Origin: Flammeovirgaceae bacterium
GTDB taxonomy: Bacteria > Bacteroidota > Bacteroidia > Cytophagales > Cyclobacteriaceae
DNA: 64,000 nt
Assembly: GCA_024638265.1 (NCBI GenBank)
Contig: JAHEKQ010000008.1
Coordinates: forward strand, 1 to 64,000
Direction: 5' to 3'
Of the stretch, positions 840-7,055 are shown piece by piece; within the stretch, counting starts at the first letter, position 1; each line of letters starts with the position of its first letter. The notes beneath the pieces were generated by a model that saw only the letters and a program-made list of their open reading frames with translations, was not told where the DNA came from and ran no database searches. The translations under genes and the position numbers were made by a program.

Positions 840-1322
840 TTATTTTTGTTCTGAAAGGATGTGAGTAAGAACCATGGTAAGTTCATCCTTGCTTAGTTTT
901 TTGAGAAATTTATTCAATGCCTCATTCTTTTTAATAGCATCCTGCTCTGTTATAATTCCCTGCAAAGCCTTGTAATCTGCTACGGTCAGGACTTCTGAGA
1001 GGGAATCCTCCACTAGCTGTCCACATGGACTTAGAATTTCCTCACCATAGAGCTCCAGCTCGTTTATCGCCACTTCAACAATCTCCCTGCCTTGCTTTTT
1101 CGAACTTGAAATCGGATCAAAGGACCCGCTTACTGCCCGCATCGACCAACTGCTACCATATTCAACCCTCAGGCTTTCCAACTGTTTGATCTTTACATCT
1201 GCAGGACCGAAAATCCGGGTCAGTATTATCACGGTGGATGTTTTCCAGGCTTCAAAATCGAACTCTTCCCTCTCAAGTTTTTCAAGTTGGTTTTTCAGCA
1301 GTGTGATGTATTTCTTAACCAT
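840..1322 (-). CDS. Hypothetical protein, 160 aa
   Basis: I do not recognise a characterised family. The product is a soluble, mostly helical protein without signal peptide or membrane segment. It starts with a charged helix (KYITLLKNQLEKLERE) and contains a SSWSMRAV segment around residue 57. The C-terminal third is rich in Lys and Glu and predicted helical. Its stop codon lies two bases from that of the plus-strand SRPBCC gene. It lies 59 bp downstream of the DUF4301 gene on the same strand and could be the last gene of the galactokinase operon. Confidence 0.6.
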   Translation of the reverse strand: MVKKYITLLKNQLEKLEREEFDFEAWKTSTVIILTRIFGPADVKIKQLESLRVEYGSSWSMRAVSGSFDPISSSKKQGREIVEVAINELELYGEEILSPCGQLVEDSLSEVLTVADYKALQGIITEQDAIKKNEALNKFLKKLSKDELTMVLTHILSEQK

Positions 1323-1381: not shown

Positions 1382-2905
1382 CTAAAGGTGTTGTTCCCTC
1401 AAGAGGTCATTGACCGTTTTCACCGGATTAAATGTGATCTCAGGAACTTCTACCAAAATGGTATTCCAATCAGACATGCTTCCGTTCCAGAGACCAGGAA
1501 GTTCCATAGCCTTCAACTCCCTGCCATCTTTTGATTTTGAGGAGATAAACCCAGTGGATGGATCCCTGAATTTCATCAACTTGAAAGTGCTGCCATCATA
1601 CCTCCGCGGGCTTGCAATTACATCTACGGGATTAAAGTGAGTAGACGATCTCAAGATCTCAGCCTGTTCAGGATTTTCCATATCAATCTGACTGGATTCC
1701 ACTATTTGGAGGCTTATGGAATCATCCGAGTTGAGACACCAGAAGGGTCCGCCACCGGCTTCTCCTTTATTAACTACCATTCCACAAATTCGGATTGGAC
1801 GATCTAATTTTGATCTCAGTAGGTCAGCATCCGTTTTATTTTTGCCCAGTTCAAGGTTCAATTCGTCCTGGATAAATTTGGAGATTTCTTCCAGTTCAGA
1901 TCCTGATGCACCACTGTCTATCAAGGAGATAAAGTGAAAGATTTTTTGCTGATAATTAAGCAATAGCCCTGCCAATGCCTTTTTATATTCGTCAGTTGTT
2001 GCTTTAATCCTGTCGGGAACTACGTTATCAATATTCTTAATGAACATGATATCAGTGTCAATATGATCCAGGTTTTCCAACAAGGCACCATGCCCGGCCG
2101 GCCTGAATAAAATAGATCCATCTTCCTCTCGGAATGGCTCATTATTAGGGCTTACAGCAATGGTATCGGTAGCGGGGTTCTGAATGGAGTATGATACGTC
2201 ATAGCGGACATTAAACTCCGCTTCATAATGCTTCCGCACTTCTTCCATTCTTGCCTTGAACAAATCCATGTGATCGGGAGAAACGGTAAAATGTATCTTT
2301 ACCGTATTTCCGCCACCTTTTGAATACCTCGCTCCTTCCACCAAATGTTCTTCTAGTGGAGTACGTGGACTTTGACCGTACATGTGGAAATACAACAATC
2401 CCTTTGGGAGATTTCCGTAATTAAGTCCCTTTTCGGTTAATAAATTTTCGAGAATCTCAGCGTAATGGCCGTCATCCAACAATTCGGTTAGGTTCAATCC
2501 ATTCGCAGCCATTATTGACCCCAGGGCATCATAGAAAGCAAATTTTTCAATACCCCCGAAAAATTCAGACAGCTGCTTGTCTTCCATAAGGGCCCTGGAC
2601 TGATCTCCCTTTCCCATATTGGCATTCATAAAAGAGAACAATGCTTTGAACATCCGGCTGGCAGCTCCTGAAGCTGGAACGAATTTGACAATTTCCAGGT
2701 TGGTACTCTTCCTCTCGTAAGAAGCTATCAGCTCAGACCTCTCTTCATCACTCATCAGCATAATTCCATCACCTACCGTAGCTGGCCTTATTAGTTTCAT
2801 TGGAGGAAAGCCATTTTTAAAATTGTTTATCTGCTTTTCAACAGAATCAATGCTTGCCCCTTGTTCTCTTATCTGCGTAAGATCTTTTTCCGTAAATGTC
2901 GTCAT
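1382..2905 (-). CDS. DUF4301 family protein, probable sugar-nucleotidyltransferase-like enzyme
   Basis: The 507-residue product is a full-length DUF4301 member, a family of unknown function. Several segments look like the UDP-sugar pyrophosphorylase fold: a Gly/Arg loop VPASGAASRMF at 76-86 in the place of the nucleotide-binding GGxGTR loop, RPAGHGALLENL at 268-279 and FIKNIDNVVPD at 288-298. The last two resemble the PxGHGD and NxDN motifs that bind the sugar phosphate and metal in UTP:sugar-1-phosphate uridylyltransferases. The start overlaps the galK stop by 4 bp (ATGA), so the two are translationally coupled. The catalytic role is my inference from motifs and context; family membership is more certain. 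Confidence 0.85.
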   Translation of the reverse strand: MTTFTEKDLTQIREQGASIDSVEKQINNFKNGFPPMKLIRPATVGDGIMLMSDEERSELIASYERKSTNLEIVKFVPASGAASRMFKALFSFMNANMGKGDQSRALMEDKQLSEFFGGIEKFAFYDALGSIMAANGLNLTELLDDGHYAEILENLLTEKGLNYGNLPKGLLYFHMYGQSPRTPLEEHLVEGARYSKGGGNTVKIHFTVSPDHMDLFKARMEEVRKHYEAEFNVRYDVSYSIQNPATDTIAVSPNNEPFREEDGSILFRPAGHGALLENLDHIDTDIMFIKNIDNVVPDRIKATTDEYKKALAGLLLNYQQKIFHFISLIDSGASGSELEEISKFIQDELNLELGKNKTDADLLRSKLDRPIRICGMVVNKGEAGGGPFWCLNSDDSISLQIVESSQIDMENPEQAEILRSSTHFNPVDVIASPRRYDGSTFKLMKFRDPSTGFISSKSKDGRELKAMELPGLWNGSMSDWNTILVEVPEITFNPVKTVNDLLREQHL

Positions 2906-4056
2906 GTTGTTGTCGTAGCTCCGTTTGAAATCTCAAATTCGTACACTGAAATTTCCTTATTAAATGCTGAAAAGTAAAGTGTATTGAGCTCCTCTTTCCA
3001 GGAGCCATCATTTTCTTTATTGAGGATATTAATCGTACAGCCACCAAATCCGCCTCCCATCATTCGAGCCCCAAAAATTTCCTTCCTCGATTGAGCAAAA
3101 TCGACTAAGAAATCTAATTCCGAACAACTGACTTCGTATTTTTTCTTCAATCCATAGTGAGATTCATATAATAATTGTCCAATCCCTACAATATCTCCAT
3201 GGTCGAGCATCTCAGAGGCCTCACCCACACGTTTTATTTCTTCGGCGACATAAAGAATACGATTATAAGTCGAATCCTGGAGGGCATCTTTTGCATCTAT
3301 TATCTCTTCTTTGCTGAAATGTCGCAGCTCCGGGTGTTCTTTCTGGTATACCCGATTCAGAACTCTCAAGCCCTCTTCACATTCATCACGCCTCTCATTG
3401 TATGCAGAATCAGCCAGTGAATGCTTAACGTGGGTATCGATAAGTAGTAACTGATACTCACCCGATATAAAAGGATGATATTTATGTTCCAGGTTAAGAC
3501 AATCCAGCTCAATAAATGATGATTCCTTCCCGAAGAGTGATGCAAACTGATCCATGATCCCACATTTGACCCCTGCAAAATTATGTTCAGCCATCTGACC
3601 GATATGGGCCAACTCCTTTCGATCGAATCCCAGATCATTAATCTCATTGATCGCCACTCCAAATCCACACTCCAGGGCAGCAGATGAAGACATGCCCGAT
3701 CCAATTGGAATATTTCCCCCGAATGCCAACTTCACAGGCCTGACATCATGGCCTCGCTTAGTCATCTCCTCTATAACTCCCAAAAAGTAGTTAACCCATG
3801 AATTCTGCTTTCTGGGCTTTATCTCCTCTGGAGAAATTACAACCCTCTCTTGCAGGTCACATGAATAAAACTCAAAATTATCCCCTGCCGTGGAAATGGC
3901 AAATGTGATTCCAAGGTCAACTGCCGCCGGCAGGACTATCCCCCCGTTGTAATCCACATGTTCGCCAATCAGGTTGATTCTCCCAGGCCCAAATGCTTTG
4001 ATTTGTGGTTTTGAGCCATAAATGGCCTGGAAATCAGCGGAGACACGCTTCTCCAT
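2902..4056 (-). CDS. galK: Galactokinase
   Basis: A 384-residue GHMP-family kinase that phosphorylates galactose at C1 with ATP in the cytosol. The galactokinase signature GPGRINLIGEHVDYNGG is at 23-39, the Gly/Ser ATP-binding loop GSGMSSSAALE at 119-129, the catalytic Asp in GIMDQF at 169, and the C-terminal GHMP motif GGGFGGC near 335. Length is normal. It lies 2 bp after the upstream beta-barrel gene and overlaps the DUF4301 gene by 4 bp. No galT, galE or galM is in the window, which is why the DUF4301 partner is interesting as the next step for galactose-1-phosphate. A related GHMP sugar kinase is possible, but the signature favours GalK. Confidence 0.93.
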   Translation of the reverse strand: MEKRVSADFQAIYGSKPQIKAFGPGRINLIGEHVDYNGGIVLPAAVDLGITFAISTAGDNFEFYSCDLQERVVISPEEIKPRKQNSWVNYFLGVIEEMTKRGHDVRPVKLAFGGNIPIGSGMSSSAALECGFGVAINEINDLGFDRKELAHIGQMAEHNFAGVKCGIMDQFASLFGKESSFIELDCLNLEHKYHPFISGEYQLLLIDTHVKHSLADSAYNERRDECEEGLRVLNRVYQKEHPELRHFSKEEIIDAKDALQDSTYNRILYVAEEIKRVGEASEMLDHGDIVGIGQLLYESHYGLKKKYEVSCSELDFLVDFAQSRKEIFGARMMGGGFGGCTINILNKENDGSWKEELNTLYFSAFNKEISVYEFEISNGATTTT

Positions 4057-4058
4057 AA

Positions 4059-5372
4059 TTATAGAATGGTAGGGCGCCCAATCACTATATTCATCCCAAA
4101 TCTGAGATTTACTGATCGAGCCCGCGAAGGATAGAAAAAGCTGTTTACCCGGTCTGAAATAAAGTAAAATTGAATGGGTCCCGGTTTCACGATCAAGCCG
4201 CCGCTAATATTATTCACTTTGCCATTTAGATAACTCAAGCCTGTCAGGAGAAAAAATGACCTCCCAAGCTTCAAGTTATGATTGAGAGAGACCACGGGAT
4301 CTATTTTGCCCTTATCAAATGCTGAATTAAACGTAAATCCTACTTCACTTATCTCTGCCAGTCGATATCGGGCCGAAAAATTCAACTTTCCATTCAGTCC
4401 TGTTCTAAAGGATGAACCGGGCACTTCGCGGGGTTCCAACTTGTCAATAAGCGTATCCAATTCAGCCTCCATATCTTCGGTCTCACCGAAAAATAAATCA
4501 GTGAGTTCAAATCCGCTAAAAGAGTAACTGGCGTCCTCGGATTTGTATCCCTTTAGGTCATTCTTCCAATTGATAAATCCCAAATCGGTTACAGATGCGG
4601 ATACCGTGACATCGGAGTTCACTTTAAATACCATTCCGAGGTCCATACCGAAACCGCTGTTGCCGCTTGCATAAATATCACTCGCCTTTGCATTTCCTTC
4701 AAAAATGGAGCTGCCGGCAATTGTGTATTCAAGGTTGCTGACATTAATAGAGGCGGAATCGGAATTAACGTAGACGTATCCATCCTGTGAGCCGCTTATC
4801 CCTGCCACACCGGAAAGATATTTCAACCGGGCTCCCATTCGAAGGTTGGCAGTAACCGGTTGGGAATAAGAAATACCATATTCAAGATAGTTGATCCCTA
4901 TGGCACCAATCTCATCCAGTAACAAGGTATTGCTTGAAATCGGGTCAGCGGGACCAAATACAGCCCACCTTGCCACTTCTCCGGGTATAAAGACCTTATT
5001 TTCAAAACGGTTTCTGATCGAGACCATCATAAATCCGCTACTGACCTTGAACCCTGCGACGAGTAACTGTACATCTGCCACGGCACCCGTTCTCATAATC
5101 CTGCCGGCGTTTTCAGCGATTCCGTTTTCGTTAAGTACAAAGCGATTACCATCACTTTTCCATAGGTCATTGAAAGAAAGTGGAGCCGTTACCTCCACAA
5201 ATGCTGAAGAAATCCCCGGAAGCCCTATAACTATTTTATGATCAGGAGCAATTCCCGGATTTAGCAAGGTGGCCTGTGGCAGATTTTCTCCAAACTGCAA
5301 TGTGGCCACTTGGAACTGGGAAAATGCCGCAGTGCCTGAGAACACTAAAAATATAATCGCCCAGTTTCTCAT
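4059..5372 (-). CDS. DUF5723 family outer-membrane beta-barrel protein
   Basis: The 437-residue product begins with a signal peptide ending near AAFSQ and continues as alternating hydrophobic strands with Gly/Asn-rich turns. This pattern, together with N-terminal residues such as NLPQATLLNPGIAPD, fits the Bacteroidota DUF5723 family, predicted to be outer-membrane barrels related to PorV/FadL-like proteins. The C-terminus reads LRFGMNIVIG, a typical last strand. The start overlaps the stop of the upstream lipoprotein gene by 4 bp (ATGA). The pair probably makes a two-component outer-membrane unit, function unknown. Confidence 0.75.
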   Translation of the reverse strand: MRNWAIIFLVFSGTAAFSQFQVATLQFGENLPQATLLNPGIAPDHKIVIGLPGISSAFVEVTAPLSFNDLWKSDGNRFVLNENGIAENAGRIMRTGAVADVQLLVAGFKVSSGFMMVSIRNRFENKVFIPGEVARWAVFGPADPISSNTLLLDEIGAIGINYLEYGISYSQPVTANLRMGARLKYLSGVAGISGSQDGYVYVNSDSASINVSNLEYTIAGSSIFEGNAKASDIYASGNSGFGMDLGMVFKVNSDVTVSASVTDLGFINWKNDLKGYKSEDASYSFSGFELTDLFFGETEDMEAELDTLIDKLEPREVPGSSFRTGLNGKLNFSARYRLAEISEVGFTFNSAFDKGKIDPVVSLNHNLKLGRSFFLLTGLSYLNGKVNNISGGLIVKPGPIQFYFISDRVNSFFYPSRARSVNLRFGMNIVIGRPTIL

Positions 5373-6937
5373 AATTGGAATTCTGCTTTTACAGCGATTT
5401 TTAGATCGATGTAATCTATATCAAGTATTCGCACGGGAACTGCTCCATTATCTGATGTCTCGAGCAAAATGAAGACTTTTATCGATTCGGCTGTTCGAAG
5501 GGTAACGATATCCTCATCCGTAAGAATTATTTCCCGTTCCTTTACGGCAGGACTTGTTGACCTTCCATCCCCATCAACTGAAGCTGATGGGACGAGTTCC
5601 TGGTCATCTTGGAGTAGAGTCAGAATTTTAGTTCCTGTCCCATCGTAAAACTCCACCATTAGTCCCAGAGACAGTGGAAATCTATTTTCAATATTAAAAA
5701 GTAATGAGCCGGCAATTGCATCATCAAATACAGATCCACTAAAGTCGAATTCTTTTTCCAGTCTCAGATTCATTATCCGGCCATAAAGGGGCAGTCTGAC
5801 ATTTGCTGATATCTCAATTTTACTGGTATCCAGTACAAAAATCTTTTCTGTTCCCCCGGGATAACTGGCTACTGCGGCATATGATACCTCGGTAGGGATG
5901 TTGGACAGGAAATCAGACAGATTCGAATTCTGATAATTGATGTCAATCACTGAACTAACCGTAGTGCCTATTTCAGTACCGGGAGGAGCTGCGAAAATCT
6001 GAGGGTTATCTATTGGATCCCCGGTCAGAGGATGGGTTTGATTATCTCGATCCTTTATGGAAAGAGATTGTATATCTATCTCAAATGGGACCCCGAAACT
6101 GTTGTCCGCAAGGATTTGCAATGAGGGTTCCTCCAATTGAAAATCTTCAATAGTGAGGTTTTGGAGTATATTGATAGGTTCCGTTCCCGATTGGTTTTCA
6201 ATCTCCCTGAAGTCTGATTCTCCAACAATCAATTGAAATTCAGGATTAAGAATCTCAAAATATGCTTCGAGGCTTTGCGCGGGAAGAACAACATCCCCAT
6301 TTGCCGAGAGTAAAATAGTGACATCGAAGGCAAGTTTGTTAAAATCCGAACCAGCTAAGACCAGGCTAAATGTTGAGTTAGTTAAATTGTAATCAAACAT
6401 GTTGTTTCCAACAGCAACCGAAATACTCTCATTAAAAGGTACACCTTCAATTAAGAGATTAGGAATGTCAAATGTAACGTCGGTATTTACCGTATAAGAG
6501 GAATTGACCACAAGCCGGATGGTTCCTCCTTTTAGCCTGACCAGGTCAAGTCGCTCGTTATTATCCGGTTCCACTTCCAATATATCACTTTTCGTTTCCT
6601 CTATGGTTCCGGTAAGCGGCATGCCACCTGAGCTAAGCCCTGAAAATGTCACAATGGGTGAAGTCTGGCCCGGCACGGAAAAATAATTTTCGGCTACCTC
6701 GCTGAACAATTGATCCATGTATGAAAGAACTATCGTCCCATCCGGATCTGTGCTTACGATGACACTATCCAGTTCATCCGAAAAATCATTGACAAATACC
6801 CGTGAATCAATCACCGGCAAGGCAACCTCGGGACTCACTCCCAGTTCAAACTCCTTTTCATTTATTTCTCCAATCTCCTCCAGGCAACCGGTGAATAAAC
6901 CAACGATAAACAGCGACGACAACAAGCGAACTATCAT
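5369..6937 (-). CDS. Predicted lipoprotein with beta-sandwich repeats, function unknown
   Basis: From ATG 6937 the product is 522 residues with a compact lipoprotein signal (MIVRLLSSLFIVGLFTGC), the Cys being residue 18. An in-frame ATG at 6955 would only lengthen the n-region, so 6937 is preferred. The mature part is all-beta, acidic and Asn/Ser-rich, with repeated segments containing SVIDINYQNSNLSDF- or SIKVFILLETSDN-like strands, as in Bacteroidota surface or periplasmic lipoproteins. No catalytic motif is visible. It is the first gene of the overlapping series leading to galK, with a divergent promoter region shared with pcm. Confidence 0.7.
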   Translation of the reverse strand: MIVRLLSSLFIVGLFTGCLEEIGEINEKEFELGVSPEVALPVIDSRVFVNDFSDELDSVIVSTDPDGTIVLSYMDQLFSEVAENYFSVPGQTSPIVTFSGLSSGGMPLTGTIEETKSDILEVEPDNNERLDLVRLKGGTIRLVVNSSYTVNTDVTFDIPNLLIEGVPFNESISVAVGNNMFDYNLTNSTFSLVLAGSDFNKLAFDVTILLSANGDVVLPAQSLEAYFEILNPEFQLIVGESDFREIENQSGTEPINILQNLTIEDFQLEEPSLQILADNSFGVPFEIDIQSLSIKDRDNQTHPLTGDPIDNPQIFAAPPGTEIGTTVSSVIDINYQNSNLSDFLSNIPTEVSYAAVASYPGGTEKIFVLDTSKIEISANVRLPLYGRIMNLRLEKEFDFSGSVFDDAIAGSLLFNIENRFPLSLGLMVEFYDGTGTKILTLLQDDQELVPSASVDGDGRSTSPAVKEREIILTDEDIVTLRTAESIKVFILLETSDNGAVPVRILDIDYIDLKIAVKAEFQL

Positions 6938-7055
6938 GACCTGCAATATAGTCATGATAAGATTTGAGAGGAAGACGTTATCTAGAAATAGTTATTCAGA
7001 TTGATAATTTCCTATTCGCAATTTGACCGTATCTATTAACTTGCCAACCGTGGTA

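Follow-up and report, generated by a model that had tools for sequence, protein, structure and literature searches.

The DUF4301 protein encoded beside galK in a Flammeovirgaceae bacterium: a probable UDPGP-type nucleotidyltransferase without support for a dedicated galactose role

Within the UDPGP-type pyrophosphorylases, DUF4301 probably forms a divergent branch of bacterial proteins. It would act as a UTP-dependent sugar-1-phosphate uridylyltransferase, and it carries two helical insertions and lacks a C-terminal domain. A dedicated galactose role, which had been proposed from the position of its gene next to galK, is not supported. This reading would give a catalytic class and candidate active-site residues to a function-unknown family that is common in Bacteroidota. 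Canonical GalU and UDPGP proteins are rare in the sampled Bacteroidota, and the source of UDP-sugars there is a real gap. The analysis also indicates which gene of the source genome probably stands in for GalT, and it shows that a lone gene overlap can mislead about function.

The locus and the DUF4301 family

The window is the whole stretch of 64,000 nucleotides that was analysed. The following genes lie at its start:

840-1322, minus strand: 160 aa, no Pfam family assigned, next gene downstream of DUF4301
1382-2905, minus strand: DUF4301 protein (PF14134), 507 aa, predicted UDPGP-type nucleotidyltransferase from the predicted model and structural matches
2902-4056, minus strand: galK, galactokinase, 384 aa, with GalKase_gal_bdg and GHMP_kinases_N/C, above the TIGR00131 cut-off
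4059-5372, minus strand: DUF5723 protein, directly upstream of galK, within one minus-strand run
5369-6955, minus strand: 528-aa protein with no Pfam family, directly upstream of the DUF5723 gene

The galK product scored 280.4 bits with TIGR00131 (galK cut-off 226.65), and Pfam found in it the galactose-binding signature and the N- and C-terminal GHMP kinase domains. The reading frames of galK and DUF4301 share 4 bp (ATGA); the overlap had been noticed in the initial annotation. Because the minus-strand run also includes the DUF5723 gene and a Pfam-less gene upstream of galK, it is not a clean sugar operon. The source assembly is a draft (97.6% complete, 3% contaminated) and contains one DUF4301 gene only.

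The window protein matched PF14134 with an E-value of 3.9e-215 and 715.9 bits (cut-off 27), covering profile positions 1-506 of 507. DUF4301 was present in 32 of 198 Bacteroidota genomes and in 100 of 148 sampled genomes of the family-level group of the source genome. One match was in two pieces (G140:C42:34110-35705), and shorter, divergent members of 477-492 codons were seen in two genomes (G041:C1:21924-23327 in G041, and L030 in G045). No functional study of the family was found in the literature, and full-text search gave one passing mention.

Predicted fold and active site

An AlphaFold2 model was built from an alignment of 48 DUF4301 sequences, with a mean pLDDT of 92.7 and a pTM of 0.91. 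Foldseek search of this model against the PDB gave 47 chains at E <= 1e-3, every one a UGP or UAP (best 1.5e-10), and chains of GalU, RmlA and GMPP type ranked after them, at E 1.5e-3 or worse. With VIA-align 2, yeast Ugp1 was the top match (Z 23.8 over 326 residues, 3.7 A), other UGPs gave Z of about 22-24, UAPs about 20-22 (maximum 21.8) and Leishmania USP 18.0-18.3. Identity with UGPs in the structural alignments was 10-17%, and TM-scores were about 0.4-0.5 only, partly because of the insertions in DUF4301. The predicted model thus supports a GT-A-like fold of the UDPGP type, which is the fold of this superfamily and the one expected in the initial annotation; no different fold was seen in the AlphaFold2, Foldseek and VIA results.

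At the sequence level, a phmmer search of the PDB with the window protein gave no match, and a profile of 23 DUF4301 sequences matched only the C-terminus of Ugp1 (E 0.8). By hhalign, using UGP and UAP queries that were checked against PDB chains, the C-termini of DUF4301 and three UGPs were aligned with E 0.0013, and the GHG/GNG segment was aligned with two UAPs with E 0.0024. When insertion 1 was cut out, the score against UGP plus UAP was 37.1, while the maximum among 40 column-shuffled profiles was 23.3 and the reversed profile gave 18.3. The pairing of PASGAASRM with GGLGTSM, PKG with PK, GHG with GHG and NIDN with NIDN appeared in the second hhalign alignment, not the first. Pfam UDPGP (PF01704) did not list the window protein at E <= 1 and matched a DUF4301 relative in one genome (G009) weakly (E 5.5e-4, 18.5 against a cut-off of 22). 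The support from sequence comparison for kinship of DUF4301 and UGP is weak but real.

In the UGP of A. nidulans (AnUGP), uridine is contacted by Leu121, Gly123, Gly124, Gln198 and Gly227, glucose by Asn256, Asn329, Asn331 and Glu307, Mg by Asp258, and the phosphates by Lys135, His228 and Lys403 (PMC10470519). Counterparts in DUF4301 were assigned by motif order and predicted strands, not by coordinate superposition, and the segments concerned are as follows:

2648-2680, minus strand: nucleotide-binding loop VPASGAASRMF, aa 76-86, matching LNGGLGTSM of UGP, behind the first strand of the model
2411-2647, minus strand: helical insertion 1, about aa 87-165, between the nucleotide loop and PKG (model helices 87-156)
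2402-2404, minus strand: K168 in PKG, proposed equivalent of AnUGP Lys135, invariant
2180-2182, minus strand: Q242, proposed counterpart of uridine-binding AnUGP Gln198, invariant, following strand 234-240
2069-2104, minus strand: RPAGHGALLENL, aa 268-279, matching PPGHGD of UGP; G271 and H272 proposed for AnUGP Gly227 and His228, GHG invariant
2012-2044, minus strand: FIKNIDNVVPD, aa 288-298, matching SNIDNL of UGP; N291 and D293 proposed for AnUGP Asn256 and Asp258 (Mg site)
1805-2014, minus strand: helical insertion 2, about aa 298-367, helices in the predicted model
1688-1756, minus strand: GGGPFW...E403..Q406, aa 384-406; E403 proposed for AnUGP Glu307 (sugar), invariant
1622-1636, minus strand: FNPVD, aa 424-428; N425 proposed for AnUGP Asn329, with Val at the Asn331 position
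1400-1435, minus strand: TFNPVKTVNDLL, aa 491-502, matching RFLPVKTTSDLL of UGP; K496 proposed for catalytic Lys403

By this motif-based mapping, the uridine set would be P77, S79, G80, Q242 and G271, the glucose set N291, N425, V427 and E403, the Mg residue D293, and the phosphate set K168, H272 and K496, so that counterparts of the superfamily residues Lys135, His228, Lys403, Asp258 and Gln198 of AnUGP are all present. Both the 23-sequence and the 48-sequence alignment showed the mapped residues without variation, except N291 and V427, which were each kept in 47 of 48 in the larger set. The three peptides quoted in the initial annotation (aa 76-86, 268-279 and 288-298) are all in the protein, and the nucleotide loop, GHGD and NxDN motifs which they were taken for stand in the expected order and are joined by further candidate catalytic residues. 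Since both alignments show little or no variation at the key positions, these peptides are not a chance likeness. Spacing is changed: from the nucleotide loop to PK there are 91 residues in DUF4301 and 14 in UGP, and from the Mg aspartate to the GG motif about 91 and 35. Relative to AnUGP, Gly123 is replaced by Ser and Asn331 by Val, and Lys292 is absent. The sugar-binding pair Asn329 and Asn331 of eukaryotic UGP is therefore not complete, N425 being kept and the second residue being Val427.

Could DUF4301 be a non-catalytic relative that controls another enzyme and has a nucleotide-sugar as its ligand? The differing equivalents of Gly123, Lys292 and Asn331 would agree with it, and so would the lack of a fixed gene partner in most lineages: none was common to 80 loci with flanks up to 9 kb, and the neighbours vary by lineage. 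These lineage-specific neighbours are presumably RelA/SpoT-like genes, a UvrD-like helicase, pxp-like genes, a KdgK-like kinase and others. However, neither the Mg aspartate nor any of the three basic catalytic residues varies, and we consider a non-catalytic protein extremely improbable.

Fold match and residue conservation were computed, and for UTP use, the reaction and the sugar we infer the following. UTP would bind in the GT-A pocket through the loop PASGAASRM, Q242 and G271, and Mg would be held at D293. K168, H272 and K496 may then help to join UTP to a sugar-1-phosphate, releasing UDP-sugar and pyrophosphate.

Candidate substrates and gene distribution

The initial annotation had proposed that DUF4301 acts after GalK, converting galactose-1-phosphate and UTP directly to UDP-galactose and so replacing GalT. 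The 4-bp overlap with galK would suit this proposal, and so would the presence among the structural matches of Leishmania USP, which was solved with UDP-galactose (Z 18.3). The initial annotation's remark that no galT lies here holds for the whole source genome (TIGR00209 search) and also for the sampled relatives in the same family, although galT could have been missed in a draft assembly. But galK was not found beside DUF4301 in any of 139 other loci, some with flanks of just 1.5 kb, and among the genomes sampled the pairing is private to the source genome. The census of 198 Bacteroidota genomes, with galK over the cut-off in 75 and galT in 51, was also against the proposal. Fifteen of the 32 DUF4301 genomes are without galK, and the check proposed earlier, absence of galT where DUF4301 and galK are both present, failed in nine of 17 genomes, which keep galT. 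DUF4301 presence was not associated with galT loss: it was in 8 of 33 galK+ galT- genomes and 9 of 42 galK+ galT+ genomes (p 0.79), and after collapse to genera, the only account that the occurrence tests take of shared ancestry, in 6 of 26 and 4 of 27 (p 0.50). A GalT replacement is expected where galK is present and galT absent, and rarely together with galT, and DUF4301 does not have this distribution.

A better candidate for the missing step was found elsewhere in the source genome. Ravcheev and Thiele predicted that a PF00483 protein, GalY, clustered with galE, replaces GalT in galT-less gut bacteria (PMC5583593); our literature search found no other paper on GalY in Bacteroidota. Three PF00483 proteins are encoded in the source genome. 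One is RmlA, another resembles a mannose-1-phosphate guanylyltransferase, and the third is a 298-aa protein to which no NCBIfam model is close:

L184:5074-5967 (source genome, C100; also in L159): 298-aa GalY-like NTP_transferase (PF00483)

Relatives of this protein were present in 38 of 198 Bacteroidota genomes. They were found in 27 of 33 galK+ galT- genomes, including all DUF4301 carriers among them, and in 5 of 42 galK+ galT+ genomes (p 7e-10); at genus level the counts were 22 of 26 and 4 of 27 (p 3e-7). In the source genome, the gene of the 298-aa protein has an SSF transporter gene as neighbour, together with one for an APH-type kinase; in another genome (G119) a gene of this kind forms a run on one strand with galK and a sodium:solute symporter gene. 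The 298-aa protein likely corresponds to GalY (Amuc_0031), and it probably fills the missing GalT step of the source genome far better than DUF4301. Galactose-1-phosphate could be a side substrate of DUF4301; as its dedicated role, the replacement of GalT is quite unlikely. DUF4922, considered as another GalT-like gene, was absent from the source genome.

A different chemistry was suggested by gene order in a Flavobacterium-like family (f7), in which DUF4301 might adenylylate NMN for NAD salvage as partner of a nicotinamide-riboside kinase. An AAA_28/NadR-type kinase gene is directly upstream of DUF4301, after pnuC, in 13 of the 15 DUF4301-bearing genomes of this family, and in seven of its genomes (L011-L014, L016, L017, L027) the two are fused into a single ORF (about 730-800 codons) that follows pnuC and has the kinase domain first and DUF4301 after it. 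Across genomes DUF4301 co-occurs with NadR-type kinases (p 3e-6, a statistic which ignores ancestry). The shared block of this family holds PPTase-like, GGGPS-like and thiamine-binding-like genes, pnuC, the kinase, DUF4301 and a release-factor-like gene. However, the syntenic block independently lacks DUF4301 in three genomes or the kinase in two, 12 DUF4301 genomes are without a NadR-type kinase, and the uracil-reading Gln of UGP has an unvarying counterpart in DUF4301. To our knowledge there is no NMN adenylyltransferase of UDPGP fold. NMN adenylylation, if true, would be new chemistry for this fold. We regard it as very unlikely, and it is extremely doubtful that DUF4301 adenylylates NMN or another non-sugar phosphate with the fusion of kinase and DUF4301 as a two-step NAD-making enzyme.

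Riboswitch search around the block of pnuC, kinase and DUF4301 found only Flavo-1 RNAs, with no TPP or NAD class at the cut-off. In a small sample from the family of the source genome, three DUF4301-less genomes had bifunctional NadR and four genomes with DUF4301 had kinase-only homologues. Bifunctional NadR was seen beside pnuC at L186:6352-7320 and L187:3761-4744, both in genomes without DUF4301.

For DUF4301 as a sugar-1-phosphate uridylyltransferase, the sugar that we would guess first is glucose-1-phosphate, since the closest structures are those of plain UGPs. Shared fold alone is no proof of substrate, and the Asn331 position is changed to Val. Canonical GalU was above the cut-off in 3 of 198 Bacteroidota genomes and PF01704 in 5 of 198, and with both being rare, DUF4301 may be among several sources of UDP-sugars. 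As an observation beside this census, partial PF01704 matches were seen in proteins of about 1110-1140 aa near GalU-like genes (L111-L115; genomes G014, G033, G039, G078 and G166).

A narrower form of the uridylyltransferase reading takes DUF4301 as the UDP-glucose pyrophosphorylase specifically of GalU-less genomes. The UGP-like fold and the rarity of GalU and PF01704 speak for it, together with Marivirga sericea, where a Glycogen_syn (PF05693) gene precedes DUF4301 at a distance of 18 bp. But the link to glycogen synthase was seen once only, Asn331 is not conserved, and most sampled GalU-less Bacteroidota are also without DUF4301, which means that another UGPase must exist where UDP-glucose is made. 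This specific role is possible, though less likely than not.

Comparison with known nucleotidyltransferases

Compared with eukaryotic UGP (PF01704), DUF4301 is alike in predicted fold (Z 22-24) and in the order of the motifs: nucleotide loop, PK, Q, GHG, NIDN, E..Q, FN and PVK..DLL. It differs in the helical insertions, roughly 77 and 57 residues in length, in RM within the nucleotide loop, in Val at the Asn331 position and in having no Lys292, and nearly all its members are below PF01704 detection. UGP has a C-terminal domain behind the catalytic domain (PMC10470519), while DUF4301 ends just after PVKTVNDLLR, with no further domain in the model, so this domain is missing.

With UAP1/AGX, DUF4301 shares the fold (Z 20-22), the R in the loop as in GTRL, and PKG; it has GHG instead of GNG, PVK instead of PLK and FNPVD instead of FNAGN. 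USP, an enzyme type marked by activity on several sugar-1-phosphates with Gal-1-P among them, is alike in fold (Z about 18) and is the weakest structural match of UGP, UAP and USP. GalY (PF00483 NTP_transferase, PMC5583593) and DUF4301 are both nucleotidyltransferases proposed as a GalT bypass, but they belong to separate families, and the GalY-like candidate in the source genome has a distribution nearly complementary to galT which DUF4301 does not have.
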